Assembly (NCBI RefSeq): GCF_037976825.1
Contig: NZ_CP150269.1
Span: 1,903,501 to 1,967,500 of the forward strand
DNA length: 64,000 bases
Direction: 5' to 3'
Source: Paenibacillus sp. FSL K6-1330
Lineage (GTDB): Bacteria > Bacillota > Bacilli > Paenibacillales > Paenibacillaceae
Shown: positions 13,744 through 58,362 of the stretch, piece by piece
How the letters are laid out: each line of letters begins with the position of its first letter
How positions within the stretch are numbered: position 1 is the first letter of the stretch
Position numbers and translations under genes: made by a program
Notes under the pieces: model-generated
Database searches by the model: none
What the model was told of the DNA's origin: nothing
The model's input: only the letters and a program-made list of their open reading frames with translations

Positions 13744-13822
13744 GTTTATGAAGATTGGTCATTTGCTAATAAGCCATGAGGAGCTTATTTAATGGTTAGC
13801 TTGATTATGAACGAGCACGAAG

Positions 13823-13957
13823 CAGCGGAGCGGACGAATCGATTCCGGAAAAGCGGCAGCGGTCGCCTTTGCCCTCGGATTTTTACAATAGATTAAAACA
13901 GTAAGAAAAATCCGAGAGCAACAGCGATTGGAGGAACGATACGTACGTGAAGCGTCC
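13823..13957. repeat. Interspersed hairpin element, copy 1
   Basis: The left arm AGCGGAGCGGACGAATCGAT begins at 13825. A right arm containing CAACAGCGATTGGAGGAACG and ATACGTACGTGAAGCGTC follows. Both recur at 40544-40715 almost base for base. The arms are imperfect inverted partners (CGAATCGATTCC with GGAACGATACG; TCGCCTTTGC with GCAACAGCGA). The tip is its own stem (CTCGGATTTTTAC with GTAAGAAAAATCCGAG) and is unrelated to the tip of copy 2. No protein is encoded. It occupies most of the 390-base gap before the MBL gene. Confidence 0.75.
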
Positions 13958-30518: not shown

Positions 30519-30773
30519 CAAAAAAGCCCTCATCTCTTAAAGAGACGAGGACTTGTGCTCGCGGTACCACTCTTGTTGTTAAACCGAAGGGTTTAACCAC
30601 CTTTATACGATAACGGTGTAAGCCGGGGCTTCCTACAGTATTTCACTTCGGAAGACCATCTCCTGGGTCCGCTTCACGGCCGACTTTGTACCGGTTTCCA
30701 CCCTCCCGGCTCGCTTGGACTAAAGTCAAGTGCAGTTACTCTCCCAATCAACGAAAATCACATGTTCAAGTTT
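30519..30773 (-). promoter_or_regulatory. T-box riboswitch leader of argS
   Basis: On the minus strand the T-box core is AGAGTGGTACCGCGAGC (30557-30573). The terminator is AGTCCTCGTCTCTT with AAGAGATGAGGGCT followed by TTTTTTG (30519-30553). Upstream lie the structured Stem I-III region, with GGGAGGGTGGAAACCGG and others. The UGGU of the core can pair with an NCCA tRNA end: strictly with ACCA, or by G-U wobble with the GCCA end predicted for the tRNA-Arg(UCU) genes in this window. Confidence 0.88.
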
Positions 30774-40300: not shown

Positions 40301-40543
40301 GTTTTGAAAGAGTTTAAGGGGGAGGCAGGGTATATCCTTGAAATTTCTTTAAACGGTCAAAAGTGTAGCAATGACCGAATAGGACAAGTAATATAACTTG
40401 TTTATCTGACGTGCGGTAATAGGAGGAGCTCGTTTCAATGGTATGTTTTACAGTAACTATTCTTTACTGAGCTTCTGATAACTGAAGCTCAGTTCTCCAC
40501 TCTCCCCACCCCCCACGATGAAGAAGGATGCCATGCGCCGCAC

Positions 40544-40715
40544 CAGCGGAGCGGACGAATCGATTCCGGAGAAGCGGATGCGTTCGGCTGAAAGTTTTCC
40601 TCCGGAAAACTCGCATCGAAAGCATAAGCTGTTTCCGAATTTCTACATTGGTACTCGTCATTCATGAAATTCGGAAACAACAGCGATCGGAGGAACGATA
40701 CGTACGCGGAGCGTC
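40544..40715. repeat. Interspersed hairpin element, copy 2
   Basis: The left arm AGCGGAGCGGACGAATCGAT and following TTCCGGAGAAGCGG match copy 1 at 13825 with one change. The right arm CAACAGCGATCGGAGGAACG and ATACGTACGCGGAGCGTC match with a few. The tip differs completely: a stem GTTTCCGAATTTC/GAAATTCGGAAAC with a further inserted hairpin AGTTTTCC-TCC-GGAAAACT. It lies alone in the ispG-lonB gap. A 10-base direct repeat TCACAACGTC (40721-40740) abuts its right end. Confidence 0.75.
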
Positions 40716-40825
40716 TCACATCACAACGTCTCACAACGTCTCCCATCCACTTTTTGATACTTTATGACTTCGTTAATGCATCCTGATTAAATCACCTTCT
40801 TTTACAATTTGTTCCCCCTCCCGCG

Positions 40826-58019: not shown

Positions 58020-58362
58020 AATATGTACATGTATTTCATAAGCTAGAACAACGTTGAACGGGAAGAGTAGGAAGGTATGGCCTTCAGAGAGCGGAATTGC
58101 TATTTAAGCGCTGTGAGATTCCGCAGGAACCAGCTTGCCGAAGTCGCCCCGGAGTTGCGGACTTGAGATAGAGTAGGGATCGATTCTACCCTGATTAGAG
58201 TTCGCCGGCCGCAGCCGTTACCTGCGTAAAGTGTCGTGCTGATCGTAAGCCTTTCATGTTCTTCATGGGAGGACACGATGGATGAATCATGTAAGCACGA
58301 AACAAAGGTGGTACCGCGAGAGAACAGTCTTTCGTCCTTTGAGGACGAAGGGCTTTTTTTGT
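58020..58362 (+). promoter_or_regulatory. T-box riboswitch leader of valS
   Basis: The leader opens with GAACGGGAAGAGTAGGAAGG (about 58053), then CAGAGAGCGGAATTGCTATT, the usual 5' landmarks of T-box RNAs. The T-box core is AAAGGTGGTACCGCGAG (58304-58320). The terminator AGTCTTTCGTCC/GGACGAAGGGCT with TTTTTTT ends near 58360. UGGU fits a tRNA ending ACCA, as tRNA-Val does. I could not fix the valine specifier codon. Confidence 0.9.

Follow-up and report, generated by a model that had tools for sequence, protein, structure and literature searches.

Two hairpins in a 64,000-nt window of the Paenibacillus sp. FSL K6-1330 chromosome (the whole stretch of DNA analyzed here, positions 1,903,501 to 1,967,500 of NZ_CP150269.1) belong to a large, uncatalogued, Paenibacillus-wide hairpin family, whose structured core is carried by transposons, dispersed among genes, and constrained in the one species pair compared. 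The core unit of ~135 nt has arms that pair imperfectly, a junction that hardly varies, and a stem at the tip. Copy 1 lies between proS, whose name rests on a score above its NCBIfam cut-off, and an MBL-fold hydrolase gene named from scores below cut-offs only; copy 2 lies between ispG and lonB. Their coordinates are given below, with R1 denoting a covariance model built from 17 copies.

13821..13957, + strand: copy 1, standard core form, 137 nt (chromosome 1917321-1917457); R1 covariance-model match, 133.6 bits
13824..13848, + strand: copy 1 left arm, from sequence reading; pairs with the right arm in the fold
13851..13871, + strand: copy 1 conserved junction, 5′ side with mini-hairpin, consensus AAGCGnnAGCGnTCGCCTTTG; conserved columns
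13874..13916, + strand: copy 1 tip, an 11-bp perfect stem (13874-13884 with 13906-13916) and a 21-nt loop
13919..13929, + strand: copy 1 conserved junction, 3′ side, CAACAGCGATN; conserved columns
13930..13954, + strand: copy 1 right arm, from sequence reading and the fold
40542..40716, + strand: copy 2, long core form, 175 nt (chromosome 1944042-1944216); R1 covariance-model match, 83.2 bits
40593..40611, + strand: copy 2 extra side hairpin, an 8-bp stem (40593-40600 with 40604-40611)
40631..40678, + strand: copy 2 tip, a 13-bp perfect stem (40631-40643 with 40666-40678) and a 22-nt loop

An initial annotation of this DNA had described near-identical arms around different perfect tip stems, and this description holds: the left arms agree at all 26 nt of AGCGGAGCGGACGAATCGATTCCGGA, the stretch from CAACAGCGAT to the right end differs at 4 of 39 nt, and the tip stems are distinct (11 bp vs 13 bp). 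Each copy also folds as the long hairpin that had been proposed, beating most dinucleotide shuffles on both strands (copy 1, z -3.20 and -3.74, with 2 and 0 of 200 shuffles as good; copy 2, z -3.85 and -2.94, with 0 and 3 of 200). The tips do differ between the copies, but they are not the only difference, as copy 2 also carries the side hairpin at 40593-40611, an 8-bp feature common to 14 long-form sequences including copy 2. Two T-box leaders were also seen in the window, at 30538-30760 (- strand) and 58045-58342 (+ strand).

The family extends far beyond these two copies. The 7.43-Mb FSL K6-1330 chromosome holds at least 53 copies at E ≤ 2.5e-5 and at least 61 R1 matches at E ≤ 1, with 150 of 1676 candidates scored, and a BLAST search of the genome returned 50 matching pieces at E ≤ 10. 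The suggestion of a mobile, copied and structured element was right. R1 matches at E ≤ 0.01 were present in 45 of 60 related genomes, among them every one of the 37 from the genus (5 to at least 55 matches each) and, elsewhere in the order, 8 of 23, some of these through a single weak match. A sample of the phylum, scored at 13 candidates per genome under strict filters, contained matches at E ≤ 1e-5 in 5 of 249 genomes, all in the family of the window genome. A pattern scan of GTDB genomes returned at least 120 stretches, and the matches listed were all from Paenibacillus except for Gorillibacterium timonense and Bacillus sp. FJAT-27264. The exact pattern occurred in one stretch of viral contigs, while a single copy used as query matched none of 50,697 phage records and one of 72,556 plasmid records, a 2.7-Mb replicon. 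No Rfam family covered the cores at gathering thresholds; a search of copy 1 at a relaxed threshold gave 10 sub-threshold matches bearing miRNA and snoRNA names. We found no description of the hairpin family in the literature as judged by titles and abstract openings, a search that left most subscription papers outside. Tandem arrays of core plus spacer, with a period of ~180-225 bp, were observed in FSL K6-1330 (2183441-2183981, 5439361-5439854 and 6552723-6553069) and in the relative G006 (G006:C1:1452633-1453219).

The majority consensus, nnCAGCGGAGAGGACGGAATGATTCTGGAGAAGCGnCAGCGnTCGCCTTTGTCnCCGGATTTC - loop - AAGAAATCTGGGGnCAACAGCGATCGGAAGAACGATCCGTAnGCGnAGCG, is made up of outer arms, a mini-hairpin of two pairs (GC-GNNA-GC by eye), the tip stem, and the junction AGCGnTCGCCTTTG ... 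CAACAGCGATCGGA. Cores fall into recurrent size classes of ~72 nt (tipless), ~135 nt and ~175 nt; members of the last class, to which copy 2 belongs, have a side hairpin. Covariation analysis revealed that 92.0% of cells were paired in a MAFFT alignment of 17 copies, compared with 77.2% after shuffling, and 95.4% compared with 80.5% in an alignment of 110 distinct copies fitted to the model; none of 500 shuffles reached the observed level in either alignment. Among the 110 sequences, 34 of 38 pairs had changed on both sides, two-sided change affected 634 cells versus 140 in shuffles, and slid versions of the alignment paired at no more than 46%. Because GU+UG mismatch cells exceed AC+CA cells (150 vs 62, with 47 of the 62 in one register-ambiguous pair, leaving 15) and GA+AG cells exceed UC+CU cells (77 vs 9), these mismatches point to folding of the + strand.

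Terminal inverted repeats (TIRs) of the MITE kind enclose the core in relatives of the window genome, in three frames that we designate A, B and C. Frame A (GGGGCYGTCCCA) occurs in FSL K6-1330, G012, G018 and P. abyssi, among others, and its autonomous partner with the same ends is a complete, core-bearing IS1182-family IS: five 1972-bp units in G012 and one 1973-bp unit in G018 possess both ends and an open transposase frame of 514-525 codons, with the core lying antisense to the transposase gene, in the interval that separates this gene from the left end. As in the IS1182 family, the frame A transposase exceeds the NCBIfam equivalog cut-off (460.5 bits against 270); the frame A group carries the structured core, whereas five FSL K6-1330 loci with the related PF13751 domain contain none by pattern. 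Target duplications were not evident by eye for the complete frame A IS or for orphan copies. At IS1182-family loci L459-L463 we noted, by eye, a second hairpin (AAAGAAACC ... GGTTTCTTT) that follows the core and directly precedes the transposase gene, and which could hide the ribosome site of that gene in read-through RNA.

Frame B is best represented in G020, where 22 copies align over a ~215-bp unit with 28-nt TIRs (GGCTCAACATCATGATTAGTGCTTGACA and an imperfect partner). A search of that genome for its left end, at ≤3 mismatches, gave 65 sites, compared with 0 for a reversed control, and the units span 98-287 bp, some of them coreless. About 20 copies form a recent burst, with many pairs 92-98% identical within unrelated flanks. 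Across 25 two-ended units (24 from G020, one from G014), the 8-nt flanks had a mean of 6.0 letters in common, against 2.97 when shuffled (largest shuffle 4.0), and 12 of the 25 agreed at 7 or 8 letters (shuffled mean 0.5), five of them perfectly: frame B makes 8-bp target duplications. The end letters and the 8-bp duplication made ISL3 a candidate enzyme for frame B; this candidate was rejected, as the ISL3 transposase (PF01610) was found in 0 of 3 genomes searched, a search that also yielded no autonomous partner for frame B. Frame C (TATATAAGTTGAACT) has both ends in 2 of 4 copies from P. baekrokdamisoli, with single ends seen in P. roseus.

Within FSL K6-1330, frame A ends lie ≤400 nt from 9 of the 53 copies, transposase remnants are found at six copy loci, frame-C-like ends accompany 2 of 53 copies (776537 and 6076275), and frame B ends accompany none. 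The two frame-C-like ends hint that the 'TTCAACGG' subfamily came with frame C. In one of the two copies the end matches exactly over 15 nt and lies 36 nt past the core. Ends of frames A, B and C are all missing from the 400 nt around each window copy, the window contains no transposase remnant, and we call these copies orphan relatives rather than MITEs. Because no frame was found around them, a transposon origin for the window copies, and for most copies in FSL K6-1330, is argued by analogy. A tree of 211 cores, with few columns and many unresolved forks, required 32 changes of frame label. None of 200 shuffles gave so few, which shows the labels to be clustered, but the tree does not tell gain from loss of frames.

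The initial annotation had considered the element unlike simple MITE copies, a view that finds no support at the level of the family, as MITE-like units, or a complete IS, are built around the core in several subfamilies. Among prokaryotic MITEs, whose transcripts form stable stem-loops according to a review (passages in PMC10969869), QMITE2 of Coxiella resembles frame B in TIRs of ~28 nt, a similar core size and 8-bp direct repeats. Unlike in MITEs, however, a single conserved core is found here within an intact IS as well as within several TIR frames unrelated to one another, and most copies lack a recognized TIR, yet those tested stay conserved.

Conserved arms with differing tips had also been read as a sign that the tip is exchanged. 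Comparison with related genomes does not support this. FSL K6-1330 and G004 share 23 syntenic pairs, 14 of them clean, and the tip is recognizably unchanged in 14 of 14; the copy 1 ortholog in P. lautus has nearly the same tip; and in the G020 burst one tip is common to ~20 copies, traveling with its arms. No tip-only exchange was seen in any of these three sets. The recurrence of the same tip in syntenic pairs and in the burst therefore indicates that the tip moves with its arms and then drifts; drift proceeds by compensating substitutions, and tips can be lost, once between CAGCG direct repeats. The nine dropped pairs comprised two with the tip lost in one genome, one with a side hairpin in one of the two, one inverted, four with array or misaligned partners, and one at 80% identity. 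The tip at 462061 is kept in FSL K6-1330, G004 having lost it between the CAGCG direct repeats, and the tip at 6574099 is lost in FSL K6-1330 and kept in G004. By eye, the core at 5571479 stands in the opposite orientation to that at the syntenic G004 locus. Arms and tip both differ in the pair at 6824075 (80% identity), and the core differs in the pair at 1173207, one of those with array or misaligned partners; as the whole core is different at both, arms included, whole-core replacement at a locus is possible.

G004 has no counterpart of copy 1, its gap measuring 70 bp in all; in three further relatives this site scarcely aligns, and the search for an empty site at copy 1 produced no clean one. 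At ispG-lonB, a copy of the same subfamily is present in FSL K6-1330, G004, G019 and G010, and copies of another subfamily are present in G006 (two) and G002; 14 further ispG-lonB loci had no copy, some of these sequences covering the gap only partly. The FSL K6-1330 and G004 copies at this locus have the same arms and nearly the same tip, and the side hairpin of copy 2 is missing from the G004 copy.

We also determined how the cores are oriented relative to genes and replication. Among 195 elements, 94 were co-directional with and 37 opposed to their neighbors in tandem gene contexts, with 64 in other contexts. Co-direction was clear for copies with no frame (68/95) and for frame B (24/27), but not for frame A (16/25, p 0.23) or frame C (8/13, p 0.58). 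The total and the per-frame counts share loci, rely on simple ORF calls, and take tandem-array members singly. In FSL K6-1330, 31 copies run with the neighboring genes and 7 against, and 40 of 53 lie in the leading-strand sense, with dnaA at base 1 and the terminus assumed at the midpoint. Transcription and replication are inseparable as causes of this orientation because only 2 of the 38 tandem contexts in FSL K6-1330 fall on the lagging strand. A terminator excess upstream of the cores was weak (18/94 vs 10 on the control strand).

Constraint on the fold was assessed from the 14 clean pairs, whose identity is 94.4% over arms and stems (27 gap columns), whereas the adjoining 80 alignment columns per side are 85% identical (560 gap columns), and the loop, which was delimited by single-sequence folding and is too short in several rows, is 77% identical (14 gap columns). 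The difference between arm/stem and flank identity in this one species pair suggests selection on the folded part, and because the folded part changes less than the surrounding DNA, the fold would be expected to do something for the cell.

We consider it somewhat probable that the core is a transposon-carried structure that was kept after its spread as a selected element of transcripts. The window hairpins would then be old and fixed representatives of a structured noncoding core carried by Paenibacillus transposons, among them the IS1182-family IS and at least two MITE-like frames, which have spread the core; it occupies dozens of loci in many of the genomes. Transposon ends would have decayed while the core stayed and was presumably transcribed with neighboring genes, and its fold may act in RNA by protecting mRNA ends, in processing, or by insulating against read-through. 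Counting against this reading are the orientation, which agrees with replication as well (40/53 copies), the absence of clear co-direction in frames A and C, the weakness of the upstream terminator excess, the lack of a frame around the window copies and most other FSL K6-1330 copies, and the two syntenic pairs in which the whole core differs.

The main rival holds that these are plain selfish MITEs without host use, the core being transposon stuffer whose stems change slowly through palindrome correction or another neutral cause. It is favored by the observed MITE frames, target duplications and bursts, by size classes and tip loss that resemble neutral decay, and by the lack of a clear orientation preference in frames A and C. 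We nonetheless regard this explanation as unlikely: arms and stems are 94% identical across the 14 syntenic pairs while the loop of the same hairpin is at 77%, and palindrome correction would preserve pairing rather than sequence, and would not preserve the unpaired junction bases. The ispG-lonB locus argues in the same direction, since one subfamily is present there in FSL K6-1330, G004, G019 and G010 in a gap that otherwise barely aligns in G019 and G010.

Still less probable, in our judgment, is a DNA-level element, in which the strand would fold while single-stranded in the lagging-strand template and serve transposition or chromosome maintenance. The + strand is the lagging-strand template for 40 of 53 FSL K6-1330 copies, again assuming the terminus at the midpoint, and DNA, like RNA, tolerates G-T; yet the HUH/Y1 transposase (PF01797), present in 28 of 60 genomes and once in FSL K6-1330, was not found in the copy-rich genomes G004, G006, G012, G018 and G020, and frame B makes 8-bp target duplications. 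IS200/IS605-type single-strand transposition does not fit these two observations, and mobilization of the RAYT/IS200 type was rejected on the lack of a Y1 transposase in the five copy-rich genomes. Structured small RNAs that stand alone and have promoters of their own, although in keeping with the strong RNA-like covariation, are very improbable given flanks without common promoter-like sequence (by eye and base counts) and copies inside transposon units of several frames; of the earlier idea of a family of structured small RNAs, the family stands, and the heterogeneous flanks gave no sign of free-standing RNA genes.

Returning to the preferred reading of a transposon-carried, host-retained core, two further repeat classes invite comparison. 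The bcr repeats of the Bacillus cereus group are described in passages of PMC3446304 as dispersed, intergenic and MITE-like, some with conserved RNA structure and about half of copies in mRNAs; bcr1 measures 147-167 nt (passage in PMC2267715) and is called B. cereus group-specific in a reference title (PMC3446304). The hairpin family is likewise dispersed, intergenic and MITE-like, but differs from bcr repeats as described in these passages by its restriction to the Paenibacillus order among the genomes searched. GTAG/CGTC REPs with RAYT transposases are extragenic palindromic repeats (passages in PMC3733652) of 20-40 bp, according to a published abstract, into which IS110-type elements (passages in PMC11208160) and IS elements (abstract of PMC1525189) insert. 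On these accounts the core resembles REPs as an extragenic palindromic repeat and as a target of IS110-type insertions, and differs from them in length (~135 nt, with a long form of 175 nt) and in the lack of a Y1 transposase from several copy-rich genomes. An integron attC-like site was set aside by eye.

The IS110-type insertions occupy fixed positions in the core. One element, with a 378-aa frame containing DEDD_Tnp_IS110 and Transposase_20, has its left junction at CAACAG^ of the core in 5 of 5 places found among the loci examined, the core being only partly left at the site near 6282933; CAACAG^CGAT, which lies in the 3′ junction of copy 1, is an IS110 insertion point in other FSL K6-1330 copies. 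A second, different element joins at GCTCGCC^ in both of the two places found.

FSL K6-1330 6808520, 2635995, 2718044, 6076275 and near 6282933: sites of IS110-type element 1
FSL K6-1330 near 3440900 and near 2581300: sites of IS110-type element 2

As a natural target of two IS110-type elements, the core may be useful in studies of bridge-RNA targeting.

Collectively, many Paenibacillus genomes harbor dozens of copies of one folded segment that is unlisted in Rfam. More tentatively, we envisage a structured RNA module common to unrelated transposons, which might make insertions tolerable or useful to host transcripts and which, once transposon ends were lost, might stay at dozens of loci in each genome as a component of the transcriptome under selection. 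If the fold is indeed selected, the family would be a natural case of transposon cargo turning into RNA parts of many transcripts, and the coexistence of young framed copies with old orphan copies would make the step from selfish to useful directly testable.
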